A DNA stretch of 64,000 nucleotides from Tillus elongatus (Eukaryota; Arthropoda; Insecta; Coleoptera; Cleridae), in the NCBI GenBank assembly GCA_964006375.1, contig OZ023265.1:149327769-149391768 (forward strand), written 5' to 3'. The notes beneath the pieces are model-generated. The model was not told the origin of the DNA. It did no database searches and saw nothing but the letters and a program-made list of their open reading frames with translations. Shown here piece after piece: positions 15,785 to 62,486 of this stretch. The first letter of the stretch is position 1, and the number at the start of each line of letters is the position of its first letter. The position numbers and the translations under genes were made by a program.

Positions 15785-17072
15785 ATATTAAACTGACTAG
15801 AAATGGACAAAGAATCCTAAAACGTAATTATGACTGTAAACAGATAGAGTAAAAGAGACTTCTTCTCATGACATTGCTGGCTATATCTGAGTGATGAGAA
15901 ATTGCTTAATATCAAATATTAAATCAATTTCACAATGATGCAGTAGATATAAGTATGTATAAATAAAACTCTGGACGCAGCAAGTGCGTTATGGTAGTGA
16001 ATTTTCATAAAAATGTTTTTAATTGCAAATATGTGTGTTTCCTTTTTAAGAAAGCAGGCATCAATTTTGGTTACCAGTATAACCTATATAGTAAAAACAA
16101 TGTGCCATGTTTCATAAAAATAACTTTATTGTGTGAAAATGTACAAAAATTTCCAAAAGTAAACTTAAAGTGTTCCCGGAAAAACTCGTTTCTTGGTCAA
16201 CCTTATAGGTTAATAGCAAATTGAGCTATTCAAATTTGAAGCATTTAATGAAAATTCGCTACCATAACGCACTTGCTGCGTCCCGAATTTCTTTTCTTAC
16301 AAACATGCATCGCTGAAAAATTCAAAAATGCAATAACATAAGGCGTGTTTGATTAAAAAAAAAAGAAAATTTGTATCACCAACGACTTATGGGCCATCCT
16401 GTGATTGTAGAAATATTTTTTTAAGATGTAGCTCAAGACACCCTATAATTAATATATACAAATTTTCTTCATATCTTGTATAATAACGGATATATTGAGC
16501 TTTATTGATTTTTTACGAAAATTCGACAAAAATTATATACCATTAAACGATAAACTCTAAAGCTAAGGCTACTGCCAAGCATCAGAGAAAGGGTCTATTT
16601 GAAATGAATTTTCTGGAAACATTTTAGTAAAATGAAGGACAATGACGGTTGAAACTAAGACTTCAGAGTTTGTAAAACATCCTTCTTGAGACATTTGATT
16701 TCCATATCCCGTATTAGATTCAAGTTCTTTGCCTAAATGTTGCCGATTTTGACGTTTTAAATCGCAACTTTGACGTTTTGAGGAAAACCCCGATTTATTT
16801 TTCTTTAAATGCCTATAACTTTTCTGTCTTTTTACCTACATAGCTAAATTTGGGTAGGTGGCTTACCTATAAGGATATTAACTAGCGTACCAAATTTGGT
16901 TGCCCTTACTTTGTTAATTCCGGAGATATAAATTTTTTTCGAAAGAAAACACAAAATTTTCCGGGAAAACCTGGGCAGATTTTCCTGACTAACGAACTTA
17001 TCCAAGCCATTTGCAAAAGGAATTTTTCCACCAAATTAAGTCAAAATCGGCCTATTATTTTTTGAGTTATCG

Positions 17073-17142
<70 letters not shown>

Positions 17143-18130
17143 CATATAAAAATTGAAACGGACCCCGGATATGTGTTCTAAAGGGCCTAGTTCGCGGTCA
17201 TTTGAAGAAATTTTTTCAAAATTCAAAAGTCGGGATCTCCTCATTAGTGAATTTTTTTTAAGAAAATTCACTAAAACATTGTTTCTCGGCTCCTAAGGTC
17301 ATTGACATATACAAAGTAAAGGGGAAAATATCTCATACGTGTCCGATAATAATACATGTATTGTTGCGGATGCTTACTCTCCAGAACCGCTCGCTCAATG
17401 TTGGGTAATGGCGGCACCTGGAGACGACAGGAGGACCTGAGGCATGGCGCCTAGTCTTCCTGGCCCGAGGTGGCTCGCGGGCTGGGCCGGCAGGAGTAGG
17501 GCTGTACTTCGAGTTGGTGAATCTGAATGTAATCAGAGTTCCGACATAGAGTGTTGTTGCGACAATAAACTCTACAATACAACGTTTATACTTATATACG
17601 TTCATACAATTTACTGGACTTTAAGAAAACTATTCATCTTTTCTAGGGCACCTATAGCTAAGGCTGCCATGGATATATTTTCGTCTTAAAGCAACATTCT
17701 TTGGAGTGCACTCTGTGACGATGTGGCTCTCTGAAAGGCTTCCATTGTAGGTAGCACAAACTGGTGAAACATGTTGTTCCAGTAGGTAGTGTGTGAGTGC
17801 TGTGTTTCTATCCGGAGTCTTCTTAAAACGACCAAGAACCGACGACGTAGTATAAAGTGGTTGGAATGCCTCGATGGTTGGTGCTAGTTTGTGCAGCGTG
17901 GTGGTTTAATGATTCCAGTATATTTGCCACTTGTCCTAAATTACTGTTTTAATATGTAGTATTAATAGTTTGTAGTAGTGACTTCTTACTGTCATGCCTT
18001 CCATTATCTGTCTTTTAGCAGAAATATCTGCCAGTTCATTGCCCATAATACCAAAGTGTGAGAGTATCCAAGATATAAATAGAATGTATTCACTCTTAAT
18101 TATTTAACATTTCCCTCTATAGATTTTAAG
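15785..18130 (-). mobile_element. RNase H-type LINE 3' portion, split by a HINE-like element
   Basis: Minus-strand relic. From its 5' side it has the end of RNase H, ILSHFGIMGNELADISAKRQ (17985-18075), then LGRFKKTPDRNTALTHYLLE and QHVSPVCATYNGSLSESHIV near 17740-17850, the C-terminal zinc-knuckle-like segment of RNase H-bearing LINEs. Its 3' UTR continues to about 15785 but is interrupted at 15969-17276 by a HINE-like insertion. The shorter copy at 11205-11659 matches the 3' end. Confidence 0.65.
15969..17276 (-). repeat. HINE/DINE-1-like interspersed element, copy A
   Basis: Read on the minus strand: 5' TTTTAGTGAATTTTC palindrome region (17240-17276), block A, (TA)n at 17075-17140, block B, then the 3' module bounded by two inverted copies of GGACGCAGCAAGTGCGTT (15972 and about 16272). 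It ends in the ACGCA-CTTGC-TGCGT hairpin and CCAGAG, next to A/T-rich flank. It contains no ORF of substance. Comparison with 11205-11659 shows it is an insertion without an obvious target duplication. Confidence 0.72.
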
Positions 18131-23336: not shown

Positions 23337-23902
23337 ATGAACTGAGCGAATAAAAACTAGAACTACGATTTATATGTTAGTTGCCAAGCAGTTGGAAAAA
23401 ATATCTCAGTAAATACTGGTTTTAGGTATAAGGAATACTTTATAAAACTGAAAGAACATTTGTTGACGTATCAAAATTGATTATTAAATACAGGCTGATC
23501 CATTTGAGTTTCTCGAGAAAACTTGACTCCAGTATTTTTACTGACTTATGCTGTTTTCAAGGGATTCTTTGCGTATTGATTGAAGTTGAAAGAAGAACAC
23601 TTTTTCAAACTTTTGGCGTGATACAGTGTTGCATGCTTCATATTAATGAAGGTACAGAGCGTCAAATGTGCCTCTGATGTTTTAGAAAAGCGGCTATAAC
23701 TTTTGAACGACTCTGTATAGACCCCAACAACCATACACTGGATGAATCGGCAAAACATGAAGAATGCAAAAATGAAACAATATACAGGTGTACCATTTAA
23801 AAAAAAGTTTGGGGTTGCATCTAACTTATGCAGCACCCTATATATGCAAAAACAATTTTAGCTTGTAGATAACGTTAGTACCTGCAACTTCCGTTGTCAT
23901 TT

Positions 23903-24710
<808 letters not shown>

Positions 24711-24842
24711 CCCTTGTTAAGCATATTGCGCGCACGAAGCACTGTGAGATTCGGCATAGTTAAAGTGCATATAAACAAGGAGAGCAGAAAGTTAAAATGT
24801 ATGTATAATATGTGATTAATAAATTAAACATTGCTTTCTTCT

Positions 24843-25227
24843 AATTAGACGAGCGTCTCGCGACAGTAAAAACTTTGATGGGTTTTTGTCGTTTTAACGA
24901 AATAAAAGACCTCCCTGACTGTGCTGTGTACACACAATCCTGCCAACTGACCTTCCTGACCTGCCCTGATATCAGTTTGCGTAATCCAAATCTAAAAGAA
25001 GTTAAAAGGCAAAGGAAAAGTTCATTATGCTCACATAACCTTGATATATGGCAGGGTTGATTTTCCTTCTCCTTTTAGCTTTTAATTAGGCAAACTGATG
25101 CCAGGGCAGGTCTGAAAAGTCAGTTGGTATGATTTTTTGTAACATCACGTTAGGGAGGCCTATAATTTCGTTAAAACAACAAAAACTCATCCAAGTTCTT
25201 ACTGTCGCGAGACGCTCGTCTAATTAG
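24843..25227. mobile_element. foldback element with long imperfect arms
   Basis: The first and last roughly 190 bp are inverted copies of one another, beginning CTAATTAGACGAGCGTCTCG and continuing through the GACAGTAA and CTGCCCTG type segments, with only a short spacer. No coding sequence is present. It looks like a non-autonomous foldback/MITE insertion between two HINE-like fragments. Confidence 0.6.
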
Positions 25228-25317
25228 AGAGTAGGATTGATTCCCAGTGCGACGGGTAATATATTCGTGTCAGTGTAAAACACATATTACTCTTATCGTC
25301 GTATATAACAATTATGG

Positions 25318-25982
25318 TCAGTTAAAGAAAAATATCTCAAAACGTCAAAGTCGCAATTTGAACGTCAAAATTGGCAATGTTTAGGCAAAGAACGTGAAAT
25401 AAATACGGATTGTGAAAAGAAAATGTTGCAAGAAGAGTGTTCTGTGAAATCTTAAGTTTCAGCTTCAACCGTCATTGCCCTCAATTTTACTAAAATATTT
25501 ACAAAAAATTCATTTCGAATAGAACCTTTCTCTGATGCTTTGGCTGTCGGTTTAGTTAAGTTGATGCTTTCGCTGTAGGTTTAGTGAAGTTTATGGTTTA
25601 ACGGTCTATAATTTTTAGCTAATTTTGGTAGAACAAATTCGTTAATGCATTTTGCATTTTTTTATCGAAATATGATGCATGTTTATAAGAAAAAAATTTG
25701 GACGCAGTAAGTGCGTTTTTGTAGCGAATTTTCATTAAATCTTTCAAATTGCATAACTCAATTTGCTATTAACATCAGGTTTGTTGGCTAGGAAACCAAC
25801 ATTTAAGTTTAGTTGCGGAAAATCTTTGTACATTTTCAAACAATAAGTAATTTTGATAAAATATAGTACATTGTTTCTACTACATAGGCTATACTGGTAA
25901 TCAGATTAATGCCTGCTCGCATTGGCTATTAAAAACACTTTTATGAAAATTCACTTTCATAACGCACTTGCTGCGTCCAGAC
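25318..25982 (+). repeat. HINE-like element, 5'-truncated copy with intact 3' module
   Basis: Holds the end of block B and a complete 3' module. GGACGCAGTAAGTGCG near 25700 and its inverted partner CGCACTTGCTGCGTCC near 25963-25978 enclose about 285 bp. It ends CCAGAC followed by a run of nine T. Confidence 0.65.
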
Positions 25983-26052
25983 TTTTTTTTTAAAGTAATC
26001 TTGGCAATACCATTGTCTTCAAAATTTGTACAGAAGAGTGTTTCATATTGTA

Positions 26053-26755: not shown

Positions 26756-26922
26756 AAGAGAATGTGGTAGTGACTTGAGGAAGCAGTGTAAAGTGTTAAG
26801 AGAGTAGCTACTGTAGTAGCAGTGTAGAGACTTGTGTGCAGATTAGTAATTGTAGACAGTAAATTAAGTGTTTTGTGAGAGAGACATTCTAGAAATTTTA
26901 TTGTATCCATATTTAGAGTGTA

Positions 26923-26928
26923 AATAAA
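26923..26928 (+). terminator. LTR polyadenylation signal
   Basis: AATAAA near the LTR end. Used in the 3' LTR copy it would end the genomic RNA downstream of the repeated region. Confidence 0.6.
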
Positions 26929-26988
26929 GTTGTTTTGTTAAAATTAAAAAGTCTCACTTATCCAGAACCCGGAGAAAACGCAACAATT

Positions 26989-27009
26989 TGGTGTCAGAAG
27001 TGTGGGATA
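26989..27009 (+). promoter_or_regulatory. primer binding site
   Basis: TGGTGTCAGAAGTGTGGGAT begins 3 bases after the 5' LTR. Its start complements a tRNA 3' end including CCA, and the sequence resembles sites matched by leucine tRNA in other insect gypsy elements. The tRNA identity is from memory of the family and was not checked. Confidence 0.6.
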
Positions 27010-27045
27010 AGTGAGTGAAGAAGTGAACCGGCAAGCTAGCTGTAA

Positions 27046-28305: not shown

Positions 28306-28323
28306 GGGGGCGGCAGCTGGCGT
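28281..28323 (+). promoter_or_regulatory. -1 programmed ribosomal frameshift signal (gag/pol)
   Basis: GGGAAAC at 28281-28287 sits in gag phase as G GGA AAC, a canonical X XXY YYZ slippery heptamer. Six bases later ACGCCAG (28294-28300) can pair perfectly with CTGGCGT (28317-28323), a 7-bp stem enclosing the gag stop codon in its loop. The -1 frame is open from 28272 onward and enters protease. Confidence 0.72.
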
Positions 28324-31300
28324 GCGAGTCCCAAGGCCCCAAAGTCAAGGTCTCCACTATCCGACGCTACCACGAGAGCCTCGTTATACCTGGCAGCATA
28401 GACGGAAGACAATGCAGTTTCACCATCGATACTGGTGCCACTAGATCCGTTGTACGTCCAGACATGTTGCCAAACAGGTCCGCACTCACGACCAACAAAC
28501 AGCCTGTGTTGGAGACGGCAAAAGGAGATAGGATACCTGTGCATGGAGAGGCCACTGTTTTCATTAGGCTGGGCAGTACTGAGCTACAGGTAAGGGCTGT
28601 CGTCGCAGAAATCGTCGACGAATTTATTCTGGGCCTGGATTTAATGGAAGATTTCGATGTCCTGTCAGTAGACTTCCAGAATAAGATCTTGAAAATCGGT
28701 AACGAAGAGTTGTATTTATCTCCAACAGCAGGCGAAGCTAATCCCAGGGTGAGACTTATTGTCGACGAGGATACACGGATTCCTGGTAACAGTGAGAAGA
28801 TTGTCAGAGCCAGACTAGAGAAGAAACTTGATGGTATGTCTGCTCTCATAGCGGAGCCCCTAAAAGATAGACATGATGGTGCCCTCGTCGCACGATGCTT
28901 AGTAGACCCGAAGAGGACAATACCCATAAGAGTGGCTAACGTGCAAACTAACAGGGTCACATTGAAGAAAGGTGAGGTTATCGCCACTTGCGAGCCCATT
29001 GACCGAGTGACGTTGTCAAGAAAGGTGACACCCACGGCATTAGACAGAAGACTGCCAGTAGAAATGGTAGAGCGGTTCAAGAATTCTTGGGGCCAATTGA
29101 ACGACATGGAGATGGAAATGGCCCTGAAGTTCGTATTGGAAGAGGCCGATATTTTCGCTCAAGATAAAATCACAGGTCGTACGAGTCTAGTGCAACACAG
29201 AATTAATACTGGCGACGCAAGACCAATTAGACAGCCGCCGAGAAGACTGCCTTTTGCCAAGCAATCAGAAATCAAGGCGATGGTTAACGAAATGCTGGAA
29301 GATGGTGTGATTGAGGAGTCTAATAGTCCTTGGTCGTCCCCAGTAGTTTTGGTCACCAAGAAAGACGGCACTATGAGATTTTGCGTGGACTATAGGAAGC
29401 TGAATGATGTCACCAAGAAAGACAGTTATCCCCTGCCCCGGATCGACGACACTTTGAACACTTTGGCCGGATCAAAGTGGTTCTCTACATTAGACCTGAA
29501 AAGTGGCTACTGGCAAGTAGAACTCCATAAAGACGATAAGGAGAAGACTGCTTTTTCAACCGGGAATGGGTTGTACCAATTCAAGGTCATGCCATTCGGC
29601 TTATGTAATGCTCCTGCCACCTTCGAGCGACTAATGGAGTTAGTGCTGAGAGGACTGACATGGGAAACATGCCTGGTGTATCTCGATGATGTCATGGTGA
29701 TTGGAAGGACTTTCGATGAACACCTGTCGAATCTGAAGCAAGTTTTCTCCAGGCTGAGAGGTGCCAATCTGCAACTTAATCCCAAGAAATGCGTCCTCTT
29801 CCAGAAGAAAGTGAGTTTCCTCGGACATGTCGTTTCTGAGAAAGGGATAGAAACTGATCCAGAGAAAATAAAGGCAGTAAGAGACTGGCCTGTGCCGAGG
29901 AACAAACATGAGGTCAGAAGTTTTCTGGGACTTTGCAGCTACTACCGACGCTTTGTGAAGTACTTCAGCAGCATTGCGAAACCTCTGCATAGCCTGACTG
30001 AAAATAAGGTCGAGTTTATCTGGTCACCAGATTGCCAAGAGTCTTTTAGAGAACTCAAACATCGTCTTCTCACTGCTCCTATACTGGCTTATCCTCAGGA
30101 CGAAGGACTGTTCATACTGGACACCGATGCTTCCCAGTATGGCATTGGGGCAGTACTCTCGCAGCTCCAAGCCGGAGAAGAAGTTGTGATAGGCTACTTC
30201 AGCAAAACGTTCGGAAAAGCAGAAAGGAATTACTGTGTAACCCGGAAAGAACTGCTGGCAGTTGTAAGATCCATCGAACATTTCCACAGCTTCCTGTATG
30301 GAAGAACATTCCGCGTGAGGTCGGATCACTCTGCTCTGCAATGGCTTCTGAACTTTAGAAATCCCGAAGGACAGATAGCCCGATGGATAGAGAAACTGCA
30401 GAGCTACGACTTCCGGATTGAACATCGAAAAGGAAGAAGTCACGCCAATGCAGACAGCCTGTCAAGAAGACCATGTTCAGTGCATGAATGTAAATTTTGC
30501 GAGAGACAAGAGAACAAAGAGATCGACAAAGTAACTCATCAGATCAAACAACTGGTGACGGAACAGGAGAATAACACCGATCTAGACGTAAATCTTGAAT
30601 ACATCAGAGACGCACAGAAGACAGATCCAGACTTGAAAAGTATTAGAGAATGGCTCGAAAAGGGGAAAAGACCTGAGTGGCACGATGTGTCCCGGCTTGG
30701 GGCAGAGGTTAAAGGCTACTGGCTACAGTGGGACTCCTTGTGCCTAAAGAATGACTTGATCACTCGAAAATGGGAAACTGTCGATGGTAGAGACTGTATA
30801 TACCAGACTGTTGTGCCAAGTGAGTGCATAGACAGTGTTCTTCATGAGTTACACAATAGTAGAAGTGGAGGCCACTTTGGGGTCAACAGGACTCTCGCCA
30901 GAGTCAGGGACCGCTTCTATTGGATAAATTGCCGAAGAAGCGTGGAAGAATGGTGCAAACGGTGTGACCAGTGTGCTTCAAAGAAAGGACCAAAGACCCG
31001 ATCCAGAGGAAAAATGATGCAGTACATCTCAGGTGCACCGTGGGAGAGAGTTGCCGTAGACATCGCAGGACCTTTTCCCATCACAGAGTCTGGGAACAGA
31101 TACATAATGGTGGCGATGGACTACTTCTCGAAATGGCCTGAAGTTGCGCCGATGCCCAACCAAGAGGCAACGACCGTGGCAGAAGCCCTGATGGAAAATG
31201 TCATATCACGGCATGGCGTACCCTTGGAGATTCACACCGACCAGGGCCGGAATTTCGAATCAGAGGTCTGGAAGAGCCTAATGGACTTGCTAGGCATAAA

Positions 31301-31940
31301 GAAAACGAGAACAACGCCACTCCACCCTCAATCAGACGGCATGGTAGAACGACATAACAGGACCATTAATCAGTATCTTGCTATGTTTGTTGACGAGAAT
31401 CAGAGAACCTGGGACAAGCTGATACCTCTGTTCCTCCTAGCTTACAGAAGCTCTCAGCATGAATCTACCGGCTACACTCCATCCATGATGTTGACCGGCA
31501 GAGAGATGCGGCTACCAATCGACATGACGAGACCACCACCGAACGAGGACATAGCGGACCTAGCTACGTTACCTGAGTATGTCGCCGACCTAGAAGGAAA
31601 ACTGCGCACTATACACAGATGTGTCAGAGATAGGCTCCTCTTAAGCAGTGACCGGATGAAGATGCGCTTGGATCGCAGAGCAACACCCCATACATTCAAG
31701 GAAGGTGATGCAGTGTGGCTGTACCAACCAACAAGGAGAAAGGGCCTCAGTCCCAAACTTCAGAAACCATGGGAAGGGCCATACTTGGTGACTAAGAAAA
31801 TTAACGACCTAGTCTACAGAATCCAGCTGTCTCCAAGAACTAAACCCAAAGTTGTTCACATAGAGAGGTTGAGTCCCTATCGGGGCAACGAACCCCCAAG
31901 TTGGCGGCCGGTAAATACTGTTCGGGACGAACAGTCTTAA
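28287..31940 (+). CDS. pol: Pol polyprotein (protease-RT-RNase H-integrase) of Ty3/gypsy element
   Basis: Open in the -1 frame relative to gag. The first AUG is at 28464, but protease lies upstream of it (TIDTGATRSVV, catalytic DTG at 28428-28436), so expression by frameshifting is more likely and the start given is the slip site. About 1,217 residues follow: reverse transcriptase (FCVDYRKLND, LDLKSGYWQV, YLDD at 29679), RNase H (ILDTDASQYGIGAVLSQ, RSDHSALQWL), integrase with its HHCC zinc domain (HELHNS to CDQCASKKG) and DDE acids (VAVDIAGPF, HTDQGRNFES, SDGMVERHNRT), and a C-terminal GPY/F module (WEGPYLV). This is the gypsy domain order. There is no env ORF. All catalytic motifs are intact. 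Confidence 0.95.
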   Translation, partial: RPDASVRGRQLACESQGPKVKVSTIRRYHESLVIPGSIDGRQCSFTIDTGATRSVVRPDMLPNRSALTTNKQPVLETAKGDRIPVHGEATVFIRLGSTELQVRAVVAEIVDEFILGLDLMEDFDVLSVDFQNKILKIGNEELYLSPTAGEANPRVRLIVDEDTRIPGNSEKIVRARLEKKLDGMSALIAEPLKDRHDGALVARCLVDPKRTIPIRVANVQTNRVTLKKGEVIATCEPIDRVTLSRKVTPTALDRRLPVEMVERFKNSWGQLNDMEMEMALKFVLEEADIFAQDKITGRTSLVQHRINTGDARPIRQPPRRLPFAKQSEIKAMVNEMLEDGVIEESNSPWSSPVVLVTKKDGTMRFCVDYRKLNDVTKKDSYPLPRIDDTLNTLAGSKWFSTLDLKSGYWQVELHKDDKEKTAFSTGNGLYQFKVMPFGLCNAPATFERLMELVLRGLTWETCLVYLDDVMVIGRTFDEHLSNLKQVFSRLRGANLQLNPKKCVLFQKKVSFLGHVVSEKGIETDPEKIKAVRDWPVPRNKHEVRSFLGLCSYYRRFVKYFSSIAKPLHSLTENKVEFIWSPDCQESFRELKHRLLTAPILAYPQDEGLFILDTDASQYGIGAVLSQLQAGEEVVIGYFSKTFGKAERNYCVTRKELLAVVRSIEHFHSFLYGRTFRVRSDHSALQWLLNFRNPEGQIARWIEKLQSYDFRIEHRKGRSHANADSLSRRPCSVHECKFCERQENKEIDKVTHQIKQLVTEQENNTDLDVNLEYIRDAQKTDPDLKSIREWLEKGKRPEWHDVSRLGAEVKGYWLQWDSLCLKNDLITRKWETVDGRDCIYQTVVPSECIDSVLHELHNSRSGGHFGVNRTLARVRDRFYWINCRRSVEEWCKRCDQCASKKGPKTRSRGKMMQYISGAPWERVAVDIAGPFPITESGNRYIMVAMDYFSKWPEVAPMPNQEATTVAEALMENVISRHGVPLEIHTDQGRNFESEVWKSLMDLLGIKKTRTTPLHPQSDGMVERHNRTINQYLAMFVDENQRTWDKLIPLFLLAYRSSQHESTGYTPSMMLTGREMRLPIDMTRPPPNEDIADLATLPEYVADLEGKLRTIHRCVRDRLLLSSDRMKMRLDRRATPHTFKEGDAVWLYQPTRRKGLSPKLQKPWEGPYLVTKKINDLVYRIQLSPRTKPKVVHIERLSPYRGNEPPSWRPVNTVRDEQS

Positions 31941-31952
31941 GGAGGGGGGCAG
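31939..31952 (+). promoter_or_regulatory. polypurine tract
   Basis: AAGGAGGGGGGCAG directly abuts the 3' LTR and overlaps the pol stop codon. It would prime plus-strand DNA synthesis. Confidence 0.8.
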
Positions 31953-32698
31953 TGTTACAAAGCACTTCAATAGACGTATGTGCGGTGTTGCCACATCTCC
32001 AGAATTTCCCCAACATCTGGGAATTTTTGCACAATCTGGCAACACCGCCTCCCCACCCCCCTGGGGGTGCCTGGGGTGACCCCCCTCAGGCGAAGTCTCA
32101 ACCCTCTAGGACCAGAAATAACGAAGTTACCAACTTGTACCCCGTCGGAACGGATAACTGAGGTCTGCACATTCCGAACACCCTGTATATACACCCTATA
32201 TACGCAGAGAACCCTTACACCCTGTATACGCAGAGAGATCTTATAGTTCGAGAAACACCTCTTGTGTAACATAGGAGTGGTGACCACATTTGGATCATCC
32301 TGTATACACATCCCCCTGTATACACACGGGACCGATCTGTATTCACAGAACCTTCTAGTAAAAGAAGGTCCTGGAACGTTCTGGAATGGAACTCTCTAGA
32401 AAGGAGGGGAAGGTACGGCGAGTATATAAAAGCGAGAGCAAGCCAGCCCGAGTTTAGTTCAGTTCAGTAAGAGAATGTGGTAGTGACTTGAAGAAGCAGT
32501 GTAAAGTGTTAAGAGAGTAGCTACTGTAGTAGCAGTGTAGAGACTTGTGTGCAGATTAGTAATTGTAGACAGTAAATTAAGTGTTTTGTGAGAGAGACAT
32601 TCTAGAAATTTTATTGTATCCATATTTAGAGTGTAAATAAAGTTGTTTTGTTAAAATTAAAAAGTCTCACTTATCCAGAACCCGGAGAAAACGCAACA
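31953..32698 (+). mobile_element. 3' LTR of Ty3/gypsy retrotransposon
   Basis: 746 bp, same ends as the 5' LTR and followed by the target duplication GTTA at 32699-32702. It carries one copy of the 26-bp unit present twice in the 5' LTR. TATA box near 32423-32430 and AATAAA near 32636-32641. Confidence 0.95.
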
Positions 32699-35015: not shown

Positions 35016-35069
35016 CCAACCTAGAATACGTTTGTTTTTTTAATTTTCTAATTAAATTTAAAAAAAAAA

Positions 35070-35753
<684 letters not shown>

Positions 35754-37358: not shown

Positions 37359-38886
37359 TCGGGACGCAGCAACTGCGTTATGGTAGTGAATTTTCATAAA
37401 AATGTTTTTAATAGCAAATATGTTTTATAAGAAAGCATGCATCAAATTTGGTTTCATCAAAATGACTTGATTGTTTGAAAATTTAGAAAAATTTCCGAAA
37501 GTAAACTTAAAGTGTTCCCGAAAAAACTGGTTTCTTGGTCAACCTTATAGGTTAATAGCAAATTGAGCTATTCAACTTTTGAAGCATTAAATGAAAATTC
37601 ACTACCATAACGCACTTTCTGCGTCCCGAATTTCTTTTCTTACAAATATGTATTATATTTCGATGGAAAATGCAAAAATTCAATAAAATAAGGCGTGTTC
37701 GATTAAAAAAAAATTTGAATCACCAACGACTTATGGGCCACTCTGTAATTGTAGAAATATTTTTTTAAGTAGCTCAAGACACCCTATAATTAATGTATAC
37801 AATTTTTTCTCGTATCTTGTATAATAATGATTATTATTGATTTTTTTACGAAAATTCGACAAAAATTATATACCATTAAACGATAAACTTTATAGCCAAG
37901 ACTACTGCCAAATTATCAGAGAAAGGATCTATTTGAAATGAATTTTCTGGAAATCTTTTAGTAAAATGAAGGACAATGGCGTTTGAAACTAAGACTTCAC
38001 GCTTTGTAAAACATTTTGTAAAATGCAAAAAAGCAATAACGGGTTCGAAAAAAAAAAGAAAATTTATATCAACAACGACTTATGGGCCACCCTGTGATTC
38101 TAGAAATAATTTTCCGAAAATAAAGTTAAATGTTGGTTTCCTAACCAACAAAACTTAGGTTAATAGCAAATTGAGTTATTGAAATTTGAAGGATTTAATG
38201 AAAATTCGCTACTAAAACGCACTTACTGCGTCCAGATTTTTTTCTTACATGCATCGTATTTCGATAAAAAATGCAAAAATGCATTAACGAATATGTTCTA
38301 CGTAAATTGGTTAAAAATTATAGACCGTTAAACCATAAACTTCACTAAACCTACAGCGAAAACATCAAGTTAACTAAACCGACAGCCAAAGCATCAGAGA
38401 AAGGGTCTATTTGAAATGAATTTTCTGTAAACATTTTAGTAAAATGAAGGGCAATGACGGTTGAATCTGAAACTTAAGGGTTCGCAGAACACTATTCTTG
38501 CAACATTTTCTTTTCACAATCCGTATTTGTTTTACGTTCTTTGCCTAAACATTCGCAATTTTGACGTGTCAAATTGCGAGTTTGACGTTTTGGGGAAAAC
38601 TCCAAAATTTGTTTCTTTATCTGCCCGTAACTTTTTTGTTTTTAAACTTAAAGACTTAAGTTTTGGTACGTGGTTCACTCTTTATAATACAAATACGCTC
38701 ATCAAATTTGGTTGCCCTTACTTTGTTATTTCCGGAGATTTAATTTTTTTTAGAAAGAAAAAGCAAAATTTTCCGGGAAAACCCTTTCCGAATTTCCTGG
38801 CTAACGAACTTATCCAACCACTTGCAAAATGAAGGTATTGACCAAATTTGATCAAGATCGGTCCACTATTTTTTGAGTTATCGGTA

Positions 38887-38982
<96 letters not shown>

Positions 38983-39028
38983 CACGGATCTCCCCATTAG
39001 TGAATGTTTTTAAGAAAATTCACTAAAA
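37359..39028 (-). repeat. HINE-like element, copy D, with duplicated 3' module
   Basis: On the minus strand: 5' palindrome (39005-39028), block A mostly deleted, (TA)n at 38891-38981, block B, then an internal 3'-type terminus (ACGCACTTACTGCGTCCAGA near 38217-38236), another stretch of block B (37650-38000) and a full 3' module ending at 37359. It looks like one copy fused to the 3' part of another, giving two 3' termini in series. Confidence 0.65.
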
Positions 39029-39608: not shown

Positions 39609-41534
39609 CAGGGTGGCGCATTGAAAACGAAACAGACTGATTTGCGTCCAGAGAATATTTTTTTAAGAAACGCTGAAACACGTCAATTTTAATATTGAGG
39701 GGGCATGTTTTGACATAAATTTCAACTTTGCAACATCAACCCCTTAACGGTGGCGATAACAATCCTTATATTTTAAATAGGGAACATTGGTCTAGTGTTA
39801 CATCATTTGAAAGCTCTTTCTTTTCTGTATTCAGCACACAATTTTTTTTTAAGTTTTATCAACTTGTTTAAAAATTATTCACAGTTGGAGTTGCAAGAAC
39901 GTATTTCATTGATTGTGCTAAGAAATGCACTAGTTAGTCAAGTTTTCGTTATAAAAAACTAAAAACAAAACCAAACGTTCATAAATGTTTATTCAGTTAA
40001 GTAAGTGTTCAAATTGTTAACCACCAGCTTCCATACAAAGGTACAAATTTTGTTCAAAACGAGCTCTGACATTCTGGGACATTTGTGGAGTTATTAGACG
40101 GAATTCTTCAACAAGCCGTCGTCGTAATTCTTCCAGAGACTCCGGTTCTGTTACGTAAATTCTACTCTTTAAATGGCCCCATAGAAAGAAGTCTAAAGGA
40201 GTTAAATCCGGTGATCTAGGGGGCCACTCAATAGCACCTCTACGCCCAATCCATTGCTCTGGAAACTCTCTGTTCAAAAACTCCCTAACATGTTGTGAAA
40301 AATGCGGAGAAACTCCATCTTGTTGAAACACTAATTGATTTTCTTGATAGCGATCATCATTTTCAACAACGTCAATTAATATAGGGTAAACGATATCTTC
40401 TAATAACGCTAAATACATTTCGCCCCTCAAATTGCCATTAAGAAAAATTGGTCCGATTAAACGGTCTCCAAAAATGCCAGTCCAGACATTCAATTTCTGT
40501 GGAGTTTGAGTGTGGACTTCGTGAAAATTTCTTGAAATATTATCTGCCCAATAACGACAATTATGACGATTGACTGTAGAGTTTAATAAAAACGTACACT
40601 CGTCTGAAAAACAGATATTGAACAGAAAGTTCCCGTTATCAGCTATTCGTGCAGACATGACTCCACAAAACTCCAGCCGCCGATCAAAATCATCTTCATT
40701 CAGTTGTTGTACAAGATGAATTTTATACGGGTGAAATATATGATGCTTCAATATTCGCTGAATAGTTTTTGTTTTGATGTTTGAAACAGTGGCCAATATT
40801 CTCGTGCTCAAAGTTGGGTCTGCAGCAATTTGTCCTAAAACTTCAATCTCAGTAGTCTCATTTCTAACCGGAAATTCACGTTCAGGATCCCGTTTTTGTT
40901 TTTGTTGTTGAACCACTTTGTCGAAACTTTGCAACTAACTCCAAAATGTATTTTCTGTTAACATGTCTGTTCGGATGTCGTTTATTAAACAAGTTTGCAG
41001 TACAGTTGGCACAGTCATCGTTTTTGAAAAAAAGAGTAATTATTTCAACTTTTCTACAGAATACACCATTGTGAAATTAATTGTCGGTAGTACTATCAAG
41101 TATCAAACCGACCGATAAACTAAAATAATAAACCGCATTTCTCTCATTCAGATAAGAAATGTTCTGATAGTCAATTTTTTGTTTACAAACCAACAAAACA
41201 TTGACTATCAGCACATTTATTGTCGGAATGAGTGAAATGCGTTTTTGCAACTTCAACTGTGAATAATTTTTAAACGAGTTGATAAAACTTCCAAAAAAAT
41301 TACTGTGCTGAATTCAGAAAAGAAAGAGCTTTTAAGTGATGTAACACTCGACCCATATTCCCTATTTAACATATAAGGGTTGTTATCACCACCCTTAAGG
41401 GGTTGATGTTGCAAAGTTGAGTTTTGTGTCAAAACATGTCCCCCTCAATTTTAAAATTGACGTGTTTCAGCGTTTCTTAAAAAAAAATTATCTGGACGCA
41501 AATCGGTCTGTTTCGTTTGCAATGCGCCACCCTA
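39609..41534 (-). mobile_element. complete TIR transposon, DD41D Tc1/mariner-type
   Basis: 1,926 bp, flanked by TA on both sides (39607-39608 and 41535-41536). Termini are CAGGGTGGCGCATTG (left) and its inverted copy (right), with long inverted repeats of about 330 bp. It encodes one transposase on the minus strand with a frameshift near its start. A second copy lies at 60944-62488. Confidence 0.85.
40017..41069 (-). pseudogene. DD41D transposase, frameshifted
   Basis: The ancestral start is ATG at 41067-41069 (MVYSVE), but a 4-bp deletion right after it shifts the frame, and another indel lies near 40900. From 40934 to the stop at 40017 the frame is open for 305 residues. It includes the helix-turn-helix part (TRILATVSNIKTKTIQRIL), the first catalytic D in FSDECTF, an NVWTGIFGDRLIGP segment, the second D in QQDGVSPHF and the third in SPDLTPLDFFLWG. 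Between the last two there are 41 residues, hence DD41D. Elements of this spacing in the Tc1/mariner superfamily include rosa-like families, but I have not aligned them. The active-site residues are intact while the N-terminus is not. Confidence 0.8.
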
Positions 41535-42238: not shown

Positions 42239-45640
<3,402 letters not shown>

Positions 45641-45649
45641 GAAAATTCC

Positions 45650-46728
45650 ACTACCATTCCTTTCGCAAGTCGCTTGGATAATTTTGTTAGCCAGGAGCGA
45701 GGTTTTCGCGGAAAAATTTGTGTTTTCATTCGCAAAATATTTATATCTCCAAAATTAACAAAGTAAGGGCAACCAAATTTGGTAAGCTGGTTTATATCGT
45801 TATAGGTGTGCCACCTACCAAAATTTAACTCTGTAGGTCAAAAGACAAAAAAGTTATGGGCATTTAAAGAAAAATAAATTGGGGGTTTCCTCAAAACGTC
45901 AAAGTGACAATTGAAAACGTCAAACTTCGCAACATTTAGGCAAATAACTTGAATCTAATACGATCTATGGAAAGAAAATGTCTCAAGAAGAATGTTTTAC
46001 ATACACCGAACTCTTAGTTTCAACCGTCATTGTCCTTCATTTTACTAAAATATTTCCAGAAAATTCATTTCTAATAGACCCTTTCTCTGATGCTTGGCAG
46101 TAGCCTTAGCTATAGAGTTTAATGTTTAATGGTATATAATTTTTGTCGAATTTTCGTAAAAAAACAATAAAGCTCAATATATTCGTTATTATACAAGATA
46201 TGAAAAAATATTGTATACATTAATTATACGGTGTTTTGAGCTACATCTTAAAAAATTATTGCGACAATCACAGGGTGGCCCATAAGTCGTTGGTGATACA
46301 AATAATTTTTTTTGTCGAAAACGCCTTATTTTTTTGCATTTTCCATCGAAATATAATGCATGTTTGTAAGTTAAGAAATTCTGGAGGCAGCAAGTGCGTT
46401 GTGGTTGCGAATTTTGATTATATGCTTCATATTTGAAAAGCTCAATTTGCTATTAACCTATAAGGTTGACCAAGAAACGGATTTTTCAGTAACACTTTTG
46501 GTTTACTTTTGGAAATTTCTGTACAATCAAGTTATTTTGATGAAACATGGCACATTGTTTTTACTATATATGTTATACTGGTAATCAAATTTGATGCCTG
46601 CTTTTTCTATATAGGTTATACTGGTAACCAAAATTGATGTCTGCTTTCTTAAAAAGAAAACACACATATTTGCAATAAAAACATTTTTATGAAAATTCAC
46701 TACCATAACGCACTTGCTGCGTCCCGAG
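45650..46728 (+). repeat. HINE-like element, copy E, right part
   Basis: Resumes in block B (TTCCTTTCGCAAGTCGCTTGG) and continues to a full 3' module bounded by inverted GCAGCAAGTGCGTTGTGG (near 46387) and CCATAACGCACTTGCTGCGT (46703-46722). It ends CCCGAGATTTTTTATT. About 70 bp between the TA array and block B are missing at the LINE junction. Confidence 0.7.
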
Positions 46729-46846
46729 ATTTTTTATTATTACAAAAATTTTATTTCCATACAAATGGACCAAATAAATAAGACTCCGATCTTAGTACAC
46801 ATTTAGTGAATCTTCATGAAATAAATGTGACGCCTCTATTATTATT

Positions 46847-53544: not shown

Positions 53545-53678
53545 TTTTAGTGAATTTTCTTAAAAAAAATTCACTAATGAGGAGATCTCGACTTTTGAAT
53601 TTTGAAAAAATTTCTTCAAATGAGCGCTAATTAGGCCCCCCAGAACACATATCCGAGGTCAGTTTGAATTTTTATATG

Positions 53679-53759
<81 letters not shown>

Positions 53760-54906
53760 GTATCACACCGATAACTCAAAAAATAATGGGCCGATTTTGA
53801 TTAAATTTGGTGAATAAATTCCTTTTGCAAATAGCTTGGATAAGTTCGTTAGCCAGGAAAATCTGCCCAGGTTTTCCCGGAAAATTTTGTGTTTTCTTTC
53901 GAAAAAAATTTATATCTCCCGAATTAACAAAGTAAGGGCAACCAAATTTAGTACGCGGGTTTATGTCCTTATATGTAAGTTACCTACCAAAACTTAGCTC
54001 TGTATGTCAAAAGACAAAAAAGTTATAGGCAATTAAAGAAAAATAAATTAGGGTTTTCCTCAAAACGTCAAAGTTGCGATTTAAAATGTCAAAATTGGCA
54101 ACATTTAGGCAAAGAACTTGAATCTAATCCGGGCTATGGAAATAAAATGCCTCAAGAAGGATGTTTTACAAACCCTGAAGTCTTAGTTTCAACCGTCATT
54201 GTCCTTCATTTTACTAAAATATTTCCAGAAAATTCATTTCAAATAGACCCTTTCTCTGACGATTGGCAGTAGCCTTAGCTATAAAGTTTATCGTTGAATG
54301 GTATATAATTTTTGTCGAATTTTCGTCAAAAATCAATAAAGCTCAATATATCCGTTATTATACAAGATATGAAAAAAATTTGTATACATTAATTATACAG
54401 TGTTTTGAGCTACATCTTAAAAAAATATTTCTACAATCACAGGGTGGCCCATAAGTCGTTGGTGATACAAGTTTTCTTTTTTTTAATCAAACACGCCTTA
54501 TGTTATTGCATTTTTGCATTTTCCATCGAAATATAATGCATGTTTGTAAGAAAAAAATTCTGGACGCAGCAAGTGCGTTATGGTAGCGAACTTTATTTTT
54601 TTAGTTTTGTCGAAATGCTTTTTGTAAATAATTATATCTTGGTAGGGGCTAAATACCTTGAGGAAGTTCGTTGGCCAGGAAAATCGGGCTAGTTTTTCGG
54701 GGATATTTTAAGTTAGTTTTCGAAAAATATTTGCCCTTTTCCCAACAACAAAGTTATTTTGATAAAATGTGGTACATTGTTCCCACTATAGAGGTTATAC
54801 TGGTAACCAAATTTGATGCCTGCTTTTCTTTAAAAAAAAGGCATATTTGTTAGAAAAAACATTTTTATGAAAATTCACTACCATAACGCACTTGCTGCGT
54901 CCAGAG
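53545..54906 (+). repeat. HINE-like element, copy G, complete
   Basis: 1,362 bp. In order: 5' TTTTAGTGAATTTTC with inverted partner (53545-53578), block A, (TA)n (53680-53757), block B, and a 3' module (54559-54906) bounded by inverted TGGACGCAGCAAGTGCGTTA copies. It ends GAAAATTCACTACCATAACG, the ACGCA/TGCGT hairpin and CCAGAG, followed by T6A. It is almost identical to copy H outside the TA array, with unrelated flanks. Confidence 0.8.
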
Positions 54907-54949
54907 TTTTTTAAATGTGTTGTGGTGATCTGGGTTCTCCAAGTGTACC

Positions 54950-56252
54950 TTTTTTTATTTTCATTTCAATAACACACCACGAGCGCTTACAGCCTAAATA
55001 CTATCATACCGTGGGGTGAATTCTGGACTTGAAGGTTTGGAGATTCGGGGAGTAGAAAAACGTGCCGGCAGGGAATTCCACAACTTGGAAGTCGTCAGGA
55101 CAAAAGAGCAGGCATAACAAGATGTTCTATATCTGGTGACCTGGACAGTAAAAGGGTGCATTCTCCCTGTTCCCCTGGTAGATCTGTTGGGGGAGCAGGT
55201 GGAGGAACTATGGAAGAAAGCTCCTCTGAGCAGTGCCCGTGCAGATATCTATAAAAGAGAGAGAGAGGTCATCAATGGCACGTCGGTGGGCAAGGGATAG
55301 CAGCCTTTGGGTGAGGGTAGGGTCACCATGAGACATATAGCTCCCTTCTGAATTGAGTCCAGGATAGATAGTGTAGAAGCGGCAGCGGCACCCCAGATGT
55401 GGGAGCAGTATTCGAGGTTTGGCCTTATCTGTGAAGTATATAAGGTATAGAGATTAGCTGGTGAAAAGTGTTTGCGAACCTGGAAGAGGAAACCTAATTT
55501 CTCAGCAGCCGATTCTGCAATTAAGGTGACACATTGGTGCCAATTGAGATTTCGTTCCACAGAAATGCCAACAAGTAAAAAGGACTCATTACTTTGAATA
55601 ACTTGGTTGTTCATTGTGATGGGTCTAGGGCTGGTGTATCTCTTATGAAAAAGAAAGCAAGACTGTGACTTGGTGTGGTTGAATTGTACAAAACTTCTAC
55701 TTCCCCTGTCTAATATTTTTTGGAGATCCACGGAGACAGAACCTTCCATGAGTCTGTGATCCTCATCTAATTGGGCTAAAGAGACCAGCTTAGAATATTG
55801 TATATTTGAGTGGAGGGTGCTGTTGTCCGCGTAACTGTAAACTGGGTTGGATGTGCTAGAGAGGAGGCCATTGATGTGGAGAAGAAACAAAGTAGGGGCT
55901 AAAGCTGAACATTGAGGAACTCCTGCATTAACTGGATACAGTTTAGAGGAATGGCCATCCATGACAACAGTAATGCTCCGGTTGGAGAGGAAATTTGCTG
56001 TCCAGGTACAGAGTTTTGGTGGTAGGCCATAGGCCGGTAGTTTATTAAGCAGCGCTGTGTGCCAGACATGGTCGAATGCTTTGGATATGTCTAGAGCGAC
56101 AATCTGGGATTCACCGTGTAGTTCCATAGACTTGTTCCAAGAATTGGTGACAAAGGAAAAGAGGTCGGCAGTTGATCTGCGCTGACGGAATCCATACTGC
56201 CTGTCGTGGATTAGACTGTGTTTTTCAAGAAATTTTAGTAATTCGGTGTTTA
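54950..56252 (-). mobile_element. LINE, 5'-truncated relative of the 42.5-kb element
   Basis: 1.3 kb of the RT and C-terminal half of the same LINE family. The frame 55249-56127 keeps DISKAFDHVWHTALLNKLPA, a mutated YADN in place of YADD, and NRSITVVMDGHSSKLYP. It breaks off abruptly at 56252 against a different LINE. The loss of the second catalytic aspartate makes it inactive. Confidence 0.82.
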
Positions 56253-56255
56253 GGA

Positions 56256-56880
56256 GAATTTACTAACAAATAACTCTAAGTCAGACACACTGTCTGAGAG
56301 CCATGTTTCAGTAAATGCTAGTATGCCATAGTTAACAAAAGACGTTACGGTAAAAAGCTCAGTAATTTTGGAGTTAAGTCCTCTTAACATTCTGATAATA
56401 ACATGTCAGACATCCCAGGCCTGGCTGCATCTGATCTACTGACATATATTCCCTTGCCTGGTCCTTCTTGAAAAAAGTGAAACTTCTTGACCATAACTCC
56501 CTCAGGCCAGGAGGAAGGTGACAGTAGTTGGGAAGCCAGTGAGGCTCGATCCTATATGCACTATAACTTCCAGAGCTAACAGACTGCTGAAATATCGAAA
56601 ACTGCTCATCGGGGTCAAAGATAGTGGAAAGATACTCCATAAGATCACCCTGTGTAACACTGGTATCCAACTTCGATACAAAGACTGATGTCCTTGGAGA
56701 CAAAGTAGTAGGACGCACTTCAGAGGAGCTCAACTTCTTCACTTCCACAATATATCGGTGTTTTCTCATCTCTGTATCTCCACCTCCCCCAGCACCAGTT
56801 CTGACCACCACAGCCTGCCAAAGAGCGGAAGACCCAGGTATAGAGTCCTTAACTGACACAGATCCAAATCGAGAAGGGGT
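56256..56880 (-). mobile_element. LINE ORF1/ORF2 junction fragment of another family
   Basis: On the minus strand, the frame 56374-56859 (161 codons) resembles the C-terminal domain of an ORF1 protein of CR1/Jockey-like LINEs (TSVFVSKLDTSVTQGDLMEY, then a YSAYRIEP segment and LPPGLRELWS). It is followed near 56270-56380 by LRGLNSKITELF and AFTETWLSDSVSEL, the opening of an APE endonuclease (ORF2). Truncated on both sides. The LINE relic at 57240-57640 may be the same family. Confidence 0.55.
56374..56859 (-). pseudogene. LINE ORF1-like C-terminal fragment
   Basis: 161-codon frame without a clear natural start. The motifs SVFVSKLD...T..DL..YL and YSAYRIEP..LP...LPPGL..LWS fit the conserved C-terminal region of ORF1 RNA-binding proteins in this superfamily. 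The neighbouring ORF2 endonuclease start lies downstream in the same direction, as expected. Confidence 0.5.
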
Positions 56881-56917
56881 TTAATATTGTTTAAATTAGT
56901 ATTCAAAGTACATTATA

Positions 56918-57239
56918 GATATCTGCACAGGCACTGCTCAGAGCTTTCTTCCATAGTTCTTCCACCTGCTGCCCCCAACAGACTCTACCAGGGGAACAGA
57001 GCGAATGCACCCTTTTACTGTCCAGGTCACCAGACATAGAACATCTTGTTATGCCCGCTCTTTTGTCCCGAGGACTTCCAAGTTATAGAATTCCTTGCCG
57101 GCACACGTTTTTTCTCCTCCCCCAAACCCCCAAACCTTCAAGTCCAGAATTAACAAGTTGCCTCTTTCCTCCTCGTCGACACCCACGGTACGATAGTATT
57201 TAGCGCTCGTGGTGTGTTGTTGGAATATTTATAAAAAAA
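56918..57239 (+). mobile_element. LINE 3' end, plus-strand relative of the 42.5-kb element
   Basis: About 310 bp matching the 3' end of the 42.5-kb family in plus orientation, ending in A8 at 57232-57239. 5'-truncated. It interrupts the LINE relic that continues at 57240. Confidence 0.78.
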
Positions 57240-57640
57240 ATACCTTCTGAACAAGGTTAGTCTGTATTTTGGTGATGAGATCAATCCTTTCTTTCTAACA
57301 TATACATTATGTACATCAGTCCTATAAGTCATCTTTCTGGATAAGTAAGGGGGCATTTTGTTTTGATGACTGTATGATAGAGTGCCGCCGCCCTGAGTGT
57401 AAATCTACTCTGCATATTTAGCCACCTCGACTCCATGAGCTTACACGAAAAACGCTGATACTTTCGACCACCATAGGCAAATCTCAAACACGTTTTCTGT
57501 AACCGCTGAATTCTTCTGGCATCATAACTATCTACACACGCATATTACAGCTCTAAGTAGTATGTAAACTGCGAGAGAACCAGAGCATTTACCAGCATCA
57601 GTTTAGTCTCTCCAGGAAGATAGGATCGAAGTGGAAAGAG
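57240..57640 (-). pseudogene. LINE ORF2 C-terminal relic
   Basis: Minus-strand translation reads SYLPGETKLMLVNALVLSQF, RRIQRLQKTCLRFAYG and CPPYLSRKMTYRTDVHNVYV, the thumb/C-terminal region of a CR1/Jockey-like LINE distinct from the 42.5-kb family. Stops break it, and a plus-strand LINE fragment lies immediately to its left. Confidence 0.68.
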
Positions 57641-57647
57641 CAGTGTA

Positions 57648-57988
57648 TGTATGCATCACACCGATAACTCAAAAAATAATGGGTCGATTGTGATAAAATT
57701 TGGCACGTGCCTTCCTTTTGTAAGTGGATTAGATAAGTTCGTTAGCCAGGAAAATCTAACCAGGTTTTCCGAGACAATTTTGGGTTTTCTTTCGGAAAAA
57801 GTTTTATCTCCAAAAATAGATAAGCTATGGTAACTAAATTTGGTACGTAAGTTTAGGATATTAAAAGGAAATTATGTACCAAAATTTATATTTCTATATT
57901 GCAAGAAGAAAAAGTTATAAAAAAATATTTGGTGTCAGATCATTTCTATTAAAATTCACTGCGACAACGCACTTGCTGCGTCCAGACT
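57648..57988 (+). repeat. HINE-like element, short copy I
   Basis: Block B (CACACCGATAACTCAAAAAA and onward) followed directly by a family 3' end, ACAACGCACTTGCTGCGTCC AGAC and a T-run. The 5' half, TA array and internal module are missing. Confidence 0.65.
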
Positions 57989-58811
57989 TTTTTAATATTT
58001 GTAGACAAGCACTCTAAGGCTACAACTAAGATTGCTTGTTAACTTTCCCCAGTATTAAGCTGTATTCACAAACAATTATCTACTGTCAGTACTTCCTGCG
58101 TCTCTGTTCCATCCTAAACGAGTTCATTTCAAATTCCCGATTTGAATATCTGAGGATGAGTATTCAGAAATAACAAAGGAAATTCAATTTTCATTTGAAT
58201 ACAACAAACGTGCCACCCGTAAGTTCACCTGCACATAAATAGAATCGATAATTGAGATGATTTTCGTAAAAGGGAAATGCGAATTACAGCAAGGCGTTTG
58301 CTGTGTCATTAGCACATGTAATTATGCGGCAAAAGGGAAACGGAGCAAAGAAATTCATTCGAATTCGATTAATTGTACTTTTAGAGCCAGTTGAAGTTCT
58401 GTTGGAATGAAAGTAAAGACAACGACAGCTTTTGTGTTCCATTATTGATTAAGTACAACTCTTTTTCTGTTCACTCTTTTTTTCTGATTAGATAATTCGC
58501 AAAATAAATCGTAATTGGGTTCTCATTTGTAACATTTTAGGTCATTTGTAATGAATTTTCGAATGAATGTCACGAGCCATAACATATACATTTTTTAATT
58601 AGAACTACGCCAGCGACAAAGGTTGCAGGCAAATGCTGGGTGAGATATGATATTAACGTTTCTTATTTGTGGGTAAATTTTATAAAATAAATTAATAATA
58701 GACTACCTTTTCTAGATGTACTAGTTATCAAAAATAAAGACGCATTAGAATTTGATGTCCATAGGAAAGAAACCACAACCCTAGGTTACATTCCGAATGA
58801 ATGAAAAAATA
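57989..58811. other. no gene seen
   Basis: AT-rich unassigned sequence. Confidence 0.5.
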
Positions 58812-58842
58812 TTAGTGAATTTTCTTAATGAAAATTCACTAA
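58812..58842. repeat. head-to-head pair of HINE-like 5' ends
   Basis: TTAGTGAATTTTC and its exact reverse complement, separated by only TTAAT, form a perfect 13-bp-arm palindrome 18 bp left of copy H. It equals two family 5' tips facing each other. Confidence 0.65.
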
Positions 58843-58859
58843 AAATGGCTAGTTTAAAC

Positions 58860-59006
58860 TTTTAGTGAATTTTCTTAAAAAAATTCACTAATGAGGAGAT
58901 CTCGACTTTTGAATTTTGAAAAAATTTCTTCAAATGAGCGCTAATTAGGCCCCCCAGAACACATATCCGAGGTCAGTTTGAATTTTTATATGTTTATATA
59001 TATATA

Positions 59007-59095
<89 letters not shown>

Positions 59096-60217
59096 GTATC
59101 ACACCGATAACTCAAAAAATAATGGGCCGATTTTGATTAAATTTGGTGAATAAATTCCTTTTGCAAATAGCTTGGATAAGTTCGTTAGCCAGGAAAATCT
59201 GCCCAGGTTTTCCCGGAAAATTTTGTGTTTTCTTTCGAAAAAAATTTATATCTCCCGAATTAACAAAGTAAGGGCAACCAAATTTAGTACGCGGGTTTAT
59301 GTCCTTATATGTAAGTTACCTACCAAAACTTAGCTCTGTATGTCAAAAGACAAAAAAGTTATAGGCAATTAAAGAAAAATAAATTAGGGTTTTCCTCAAA
59401 ACGTCAAAGTTGCGATTTAAAATGTCAAAATTGGCAACATTTAGGCAAAGAACTTGAATCTAATCCGGGCTATGGAAATAAAATGCCTCAAGAAGGATGT
59501 TTTACAAACCCTGAAGTCTTAGTTTCAACCGTCATTGTCCTTCATTTTACTAAAATATTTCCAGAAAATTCATTTCAAATAGACCCTTTCTCTGACGATT
59601 GGCAGTAGCCTTAGCTATAAAGTTTATCGTTGAATGGTATATAATTTTTGTCGAATTTTCGTCAAAAATCAATAAAGCTCAATATATCCGTTATTATACA
59701 AGATATGAAAAAAATTTGTATACATTAATTATACAGTGTTTTGAGCTACATCTTAAAAAAATATTTCTACAATCACAGGGTGGCCCATAAGTCGTTGGTG
59801 ATACAAGTTTTCTTTTTTTTAATCAAACACGCCTTATGTATATATAATGCATGTTTGTAAGAAAAAAATTCTGGACGCAGCAAGTGCGTTATGGTAGCGA
59901 ACTTTATTTTTTTAGTTTTGTCGAAATGCTTTTTGTAAATAATTATATCTTGGTAGGGGCTAAATACCTTGAGGAAGTTCGTTGGCCAGGAAAATCGGGC
60001 TAGTTTTTCGGGGATATTTTAAGTTAGTTTTCGAAAAATATTTGCCCTTTTCCCAACAACAAAGTTATTTTGATAAAATGTGGTACATTGTTCCCACTAT
60101 AGAGGTTATACTGGTAACCAAATTTGATGCCTGCTTTTCTTTAAAAAAAAGGCATATTTGTTAGAAAAAACATTTTTATGAAAATTCACTACCATAACGC
60201 ACTTGCTGCGTCCAGAG
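58860..60217 (+). repeat. HINE-like element, copy H, complete
   Basis: 1,358 bp with the same order of parts as copy G and almost identical sequence. The differences I see are the length of the TA array (58994-59095), one A in the 5' palindrome, and a deletion of about 24 bp near 59838. It ends CCAGAGTTTTTTA, then flank. The flanking sequences of G and H are unrelated. Confidence 0.8.
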
Positions 60218-60299
60218 TTTTTTAGTAAATACGCTAATATAGATATAGCAAAGAATTAGGGTATCTAAAGAACGGGGCTGAATATGATCAATCCACTGC

Positions 60300-60813: not shown

Positions 60814-62486
<1,673 letters not shown>

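Follow-up and report, generated by a model that had tools for sequence, protein, structure and literature searches.

The closest described relatives of the repeats analysed here are the HINEs (non-autonomous Helentrons) of Metaseiulus and Culex, reported by Thomas, Vadnagara and Pritham in 2014 (PMC4067079). In the sections of that account consulted, these are non-coding elements with palindromic subterminal repeats of 12-15 bp, a palindrome near the 3' end, an optional microsatellite, T-rich targets, a variable number of Ts at the ends and empty sites that are left unchanged. The same traits recur in a repeat family of the beetle Tillus elongatus, which we followed through a 64-kb stretch of DNA (positions 149327769-149391768 of contig OZ023265.1; hereafter the window). 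The likeness is drawn from the published description of the elements, and the long form of the repeat differs in carrying an additional, inverted 3' terminus that those sections do not describe.

Drosophila DINE-1 / INE-1, as characterized in the same sections, shares with the family a microsatellite core, subterminal repeats, a 3' stem-loop, TT targets and a very high copy number. Its subterminal repeats, however, are not palindromic, and the resemblance is again drawn from the published description. In the Helitron2 group, as outlined in the parts of Bao and Jurka (2013, PMC3627910) drawn on here, the 5' asymmetric terminal inverted repeat (5'-ATIR) forms a hairpin with bases downstream of it, the 3'-ATIR lies shortly before a 3' hairpin, and the 5' end is a T. 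The beetle repeats have this arrangement but encode no RepHel protein, and the five bases CCATA separate their 3'-ATIR from the hairpin. The satellite-carrying non-autonomous Helentrons of the Pacific oyster, going by the excerpt of PMC7492417 used here, likewise carry tandem repeats; in the beetle, by contrast, the core is a (TA)n array, and tandem 3' ends occur at a few loci (L001, L058 and L080; L numbers denote stretches from elsewhere in the same genome).

We conclude that the repeats are very probably a non-autonomous rolling-circle family of the Helentron type (HINE, Helitron2-like), whose movement depends on a Rep/helicase(/endonuclease) protein supplied in trans by a Helentron. The kind is already known; the family is new, very abundant and probably recently active, and its tail variant is unusual. 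No description of it was found in the literature searched, which included no search aimed at inverted double tails. An earlier inspection of the window by its letters, the sequence-only reading, had called the repeats DINE-1/HINE-like. The HINE half of that label is supported by the anatomy, the T-run ends, five of five empty sites without duplication and the presence of Helentron-type proteins in the genome. The strict DINE-1 half falls away: the subterminal repeat is palindromic, as in mite and Culex HINEs, whereas that of DINE-1 is given as non-palindromic in the sections of PMC4067079 consulted.

The anatomy is best seen in the copy at 53545-54912, which served as reference:
53545..54912, + strand: complete long-form copy, the reference (BLAST; empty-site comparison)
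53545..53577, + strand: 5' palindromic subterminal repeat (5'-ATIR plus partner arm) with a 12-bp stem (fold)
53680..53747, no strand: (TA)n array separating block A from block B (alignment)
54554..54594, - strand: 3' terminus repeated internally in inverted orientation, confined to the long form (agreement at 40 of 43 bases)
54869..54880, + strand: 3'-ATIR GAAAATTCACTA, an inverted copy of the tip (tip search)
54886..54900, + strand: 3' hairpin ACGCA-CTTGC-TGCGT (hairpin search; fold weak)
54901..54912, + strand: 3' end, CCAGAG and a T-run

Close to the 5' end, the palindromic subterminal repeat TAGTGAATTTTC stands behind a T-run, as in HINEs, and the end folds as a 12-bp hairpin (-8.7 kcal/mol, z -4.9). 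ACGCA-CTTGC-TGCGT, with its 5-bp stem, supplies the short palindrome that HINEs have near the 3' end. The repeats are asymmetric, being terminal at the 5' end and about 30 bp inside at the 3' end, where the hairpin follows; asymmetric terminal inverted repeats with hairpins at both ends are a feature of the Helitron2/ATIR group. Among 49 distinct 3' termini, internal ones included, CC(A/C)GA comes next in 31, and a run of at least three Ts lies within 16 bases past the hairpin in 48.

Within the window, the tip TTTTAGTGAATTTTC occurs at 22 sites with at most two mismatches against 0.75 expected, some of these being 3' repeats or chance matches, and the hairpin ACGCACTTGCTGCGT at 20 sites with at most three mismatches against 0.62 expected. 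BLAST of the reference copy against the whole window recovers several fragments and eight copies of substantial length, among which two are rearranged and one is split. This agrees with the sequence-only reading, which had counted at least seven substantial copies and several fragments on a shared plan of palindrome, block A, (TA)n, block B, inverted tip copy, hairpin, CCAGA and T-run; beyond that plan, long copies also contain the internal inverted 3' terminus. The interval in which it placed the family, 53545..60217, also holds retrotransposon pieces at about 54975-57200. Besides the reference, the members in the window are:
58860..60223, + strand: second complete long-form copy (BLAST; alignment to reference)
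57646..57993, + strand: short-form copy without its 5' part (BLAST)
15963..17276, - strand: complete long-form copy (BLAST; alignment; empty site)
23900..25986, + strand: rearranged long-form copy in two overlapping parts (BLAST query 1-715, then 515-1366 in pieces)
35064..35753, - strand: short-form copy, no internal inverted terminus (BLAST)
37359..39028, - strand: rearranged long-form copy in two overlapping parts (BLAST query 1-1050 in pieces, then 617-1361)
42239..42465, + strand: 5' portion of a copy that a minus-strand retrotransposon interrupts close to the end of the (TA)n array (BLAST part 42239-42455)
45656..46732, + strand: 3' part, most simply of that same copy, split by the retrotransposon
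starting at 1814, 23178, 33348, 48869, 50096 and 62487: fragments of the family (BLAST)
58810..58844, no strand: solo palindrome of the tip, 15 bp upstream of the copy that starts at 58860 (tip search)

The solo palindrome has the tip on both strands and is perhaps a remnant or a one-ended insertion.

A run of two to five Ts precedes TAGTG in all 12 copies whose ends were paired by script (three Ts in six copies, five in four, four in one and two in one). In ten of the 12, no word of three or more bases at the left edge recurs in the right 35 bases; one of the remaining copies has such a word of three bases and the other one of four. One pairing (L002), whose end is of the internal type, is probably wrong. 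Empty relatives were sought for 14 script pairings, of which some were spurious and one (L069) repeated the locus of L055; four distinct empty sites emerged. The copy at 53545 pairs with 23337-23255(-) at 73.6% over 87 columns, the copy at 17276(-) with 11460-11341(-) at 81% over 121 columns, the copy in L004 with L039 at 90% over 120 columns, and the copy in L055 with L044 at 93% over 126 columns, the last with a T-rich target. A fifth empty site, in L077, corresponds to the copy upstream of the Helentron at L039, with flanks 91% and 89% identical. A T-rich target is clear at three of the five and less clear at the two diverged ones, and family copies have also inserted into T-runs of other copies of their own family. 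The claim of no obvious target duplication is borne out by the 12 paired copies and by all five distinct empty sites; the proposed check, insertion at T-runs without duplication, had the same outcome, with ends that abut T-runs.

Outside the (TA)n array, the copies at 53545-54912 and 58860-60223 are identical at 1,244 of 1,244 compared bases, with 40 gap columns. Because their flanks are unrelated, this comparison suggests that the family moved very recently. Two further copies were aligned in full with the reference and are more diverged: 17276-15963(-) matches it at 89.4% of 1,227 compared bases, and L005, from another part of the genome, at 90.5%.

Counts over the assembly (1.72 Gb, 30 contigs) were restricted to exact matches, so that mutated tips and ends were left out. 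The 15-base tip occurs 66,801 times (33,191 + 33,610), against 87 (44 + 43) for a reversed-word control, and the 31-base 3' end 45,603 times (22,666 + 22,937), against 0 for its control. Among the first 100 listed tips, an exact 3' end follows on the same strand within 12 kb in 51 and within 2.2 kb in 34. Seven of these 34 tip-to-end distances fall at 791-965 bp and 24 at 1,258-1,694 bp, which defines a short and a long form. The 3' end pattern had no match in one scan of viral contigs. All places on contig C1 beyond 1.57 Mb (1.57-2.92 Mb) among the first 100 matches listed for the tip and for the 3' end lie on the + strand, either an effect of the listing or an orientation domain. Series of 3' ends, spaced about 276-280 bp in L001 (131-702) and L080 and 146-147 bp in L058 (2637-2944), look like growth of the tail in the manner of a satellite.

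Proteins that could act in trans were sought with the PF14214 profile, which gives 65 Rep matches in the genome. A motif of the Helitron type is found in at least two families with long open frames and in a third with RGLPHAH (L031, L033). The L039 family is a Helentron: its 2,427-aa frame has the Rep motif RIEFQQRGSPHAH (RGSPH), and a serine between G and P is given as a Helentron sign in the consulted sections of PMC4067079. DUF6570, Helitron_like_N, PIF1, UvrD_C_2 and Exo_endo_phos domains were found in the 2,094 aa scanned, and the best relatives, 45% and 43% identical, are in the scale insects Parthenolecanium and Planococcus. The C-terminus, by eye, resembles a Ulp1-type peptidase. Homology within the family begins at TTTTAGTCTAAGAGACTTTA or a variant of it (L075, L076), a tentative 5' boundary, given that the likeness of L039 and L077 extends much further upstream. 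It ends 3' at a CAACTGCC(A/C)A(A/C)TT-like sequence before (TA)n or an insertion (L044, L047, L048, L052, L054).

Because repeat copies lie on both sides of its open reading frame (ORF), the L039 Helentron was first taken for the partner. We dropped it: L077 shows an empty site where the upstream copy stands, so that this copy was inserted later, the downstream copy looks like a separate, decayed one, and the ends of the ORF family seem to be different. Counting against this decision, the ORF region in L050, L053 and L056 is followed at once, and at the same position, by a repeat tip. Since the sequence that comes next is the same in L053 and L056, we read this as one old insertion that was copied along. 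A second Helentron-type family (L040, L078, L079) has the motif RGSPHLH; the repeat ends were looked for in it without result, and no endonuclease was present in the frames ending in two sibling tails (L078, L079). The tip, at up to three mismatches, was absent from the 1.2 kb upstream of three further Rep loci (L082-L084), and a related subfamily begins elsewhere (L074, L083). None of these families is put forward as the cognate partner, because the tentative ends differ in the one family whose ends could be examined. In the window, two partial Helentron frames gave no protein-level match at E 0.01. The search proposed in the sequence-only reading, for a genomic Rep/helicase-endonuclease element with the same ends, was answered in part: Helentron-type proteins are present, and the shared tip and hairpin were not found in the few loci examined.

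Many of the 65 Rep matches lie on contig C7 at about 44-49 Mb, in a dense cluster of Helitron and Helentron copies. Five canonical Helitron loci (L009-L013) have open 1,124-aa frames and are perhaps young, because their Rep scores are equal or nearly so (212.7 four times, 211.9 once).

Several observations weigh against assigning the repeats to the Helentrons. The few loci examined yielded no autonomous element that shares the tip and hairpin, so that the link rests on anatomy and insertion behaviour; as far as the copies show, the tentative ends of the L039 family differ from those of the repeat. Compared with two incomplete Helentron frames, the reference repeat gave no significant protein-level match (best E 0.37). 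The 3' hairpin is short and weak by folding energy (z -1.3), and the distance from the 3'-ATIR (54869-54880) to the end (54906-54912), 26-44 bp depending on how it is counted, overlaps the published 38-60 bp partly. Of the five empty sites, two are paralogues that have diverged (74% and 81%) and do not pin down the exact joint, and gene conversion could also account for the identity of the two window copies.

Three other origins were weighed against this evidence. A miniature inverted-repeat transposable element (MITE), that is, a non-autonomous element with terminal inverted repeats (TIRs), cut and pasted by a DDE transposase, would make the inverted tips and, in the long form, the two inverted 3' termini its terminal repeats. 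Inverted repeats do lie near both ends, 43-base inverted repeats flank the 3' module of the long form, and the window contains a Tc1/mariner-like frame, a weak match below the curated cut-off. Against these stands the lack of a fixed-length target duplication, the hallmark of TIR transposons, at five of five distinct empty sites and in 12 paired copies. Moreover, the repeats are asymmetric in the manner described above, with a hairpin behind the 3' one, and in 16 of 17 long-form entries the DNA beyond the internal terminus is common to the family and not a variable flank. We therefore regard a MITE as highly unlikely. Retroposition, by which a SINE-like or truncated non-LTR (long terminal repeat) element would carry the T-run as its tail, accounts for the T-runs at the 3' end. 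Against it, both ends recur precisely, T-runs flank both sides, no duplication is seen, and the 5' end is a palindrome that returns inverted near the 3' end. Several reverse-transcriptase frames do lie in the window, but this origin is barely conceivable.

The remaining candidate is a canonical element of the Helitron1 type, mobilized by the genome's own Helitrons, which have the RGLPHAH motif and open frames of 1,124 and 1,133 aa. Several such copies exist, and Helitrons too are rolling-circle movers that leave no duplications. The termini of the repeat, however, are not 5'-TC and CTRR-3', and it inserts at T-runs rather than between A and T (canonical features as given in the part of PMC5148889 consulted), which makes this origin very improbable. 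The Helentron-type assignment is the one we retain.

In the cycle that we propose for such a Helentron-type element, Rep would nick at the T-run before the palindromic 5' repeat, and one strand would be peeled off and copied. The 3' repeat, paired to its 5' counterpart, and the hairpin that follows would together mark the end, according to the model of Bao and Jurka as set out in the parts of PMC3627910 drawn on here. The single strand would then join a T-run in the target, so that no duplication would form. The enzyme, the order of the steps and the role of the hairpin are what we infer in this scheme. To our knowledge, direct experimental evidence on Helentron movement is scarce; a circular intermediate has been reported for related fungal Helitron2 elements (PMC5148889, in the part consulted). 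This beetle is a good place to catch the reaction: the family numbers tens of thousands of copies, two identical ones stand in different surroundings, and the same genome has open Helentron frames.

The tail of the long form sets it apart. In the reference copy, the internal and main 3' termini agree at 40 of 43 bases, and in all measured pairs the inverted terminus lies 199-287 bp from the main one, except for one pair at 431 bp. Tails were surveyed in a non-random sample of 59 distinct 3' ends, each preceded by 420 bp or more of sequence, Rep loci L009-L038 being left out. An inverted partner is present in 17 of the 33 main-type ends (those with A) and missing from the other 16; of 25 ends with G, mostly typical of the internal terminus, 13 have a partner and 12 do not, and one end has T. 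The pair 37364/37624, with A in both termini, enters the count twice. Next beyond the internal terminus, CTTACAAACATGCAT (at most three mismatches in its last 14 bases) stands in 16 of the 17 long-form entries, one of them doubtful as a second view of 37364/37624; L063 differs. The internal terminus therefore belongs to the long form as a fixed part and did not arrive by later insertion.

As single-stranded DNA, the 363-base tail has a folding energy of -68.9 kcal/mol, compared with -33.7 kcal/mol for shuffled sequences (z -9.7); owing to the second, inverted 3' terminus, it could fold as one long hairpin. Since both identical window copies are long-form, this structure seems not to block mobility. 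A more speculative proposal, which we consider rather unlikely, is that the long form is a distinct, successful subtype whose inverted second terminus makes the tail a large hairpin, with arms of 43 bases spaced about 200-290 bp apart on the inside, and that replication could end or start at either of the opposed termini, allowing capture or tail-to-tail products. If this were true, the replication end of a Helentron could be doubled and inverted with mobility kept, perhaps increased. The doubled inverted tail offers a natural variant for probing how the replication end is recognised.

Other mobile elements share the window. At 42456-45655, a minus-strand non-LTR retrotransposon (ORF 45520-42548; reverse-transcriptase and endonuclease matches) sits at the end of the (TA)n of a repeat copy, and pieces of the same retrotransposon lie, by eye, beside (TA)n arrays in L044, L047 and L048. 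This retrotransposon may target TA microsatellites, which the HINEs would supply. An LTR-type element occupies 26214-32466; its ends are identical (26454-26753 = 32167-32466 and 26214-26453 = 31953-32192), and its open frames at 27046-28305 and 28272-31940 are gag- and pol-like by eye. Two related transposase-like frames lie at 40017-40934 (-) and 61812-62372 (+), the former with a weak HTH_Tnp_Tc3_2 match below the curated cut-off.

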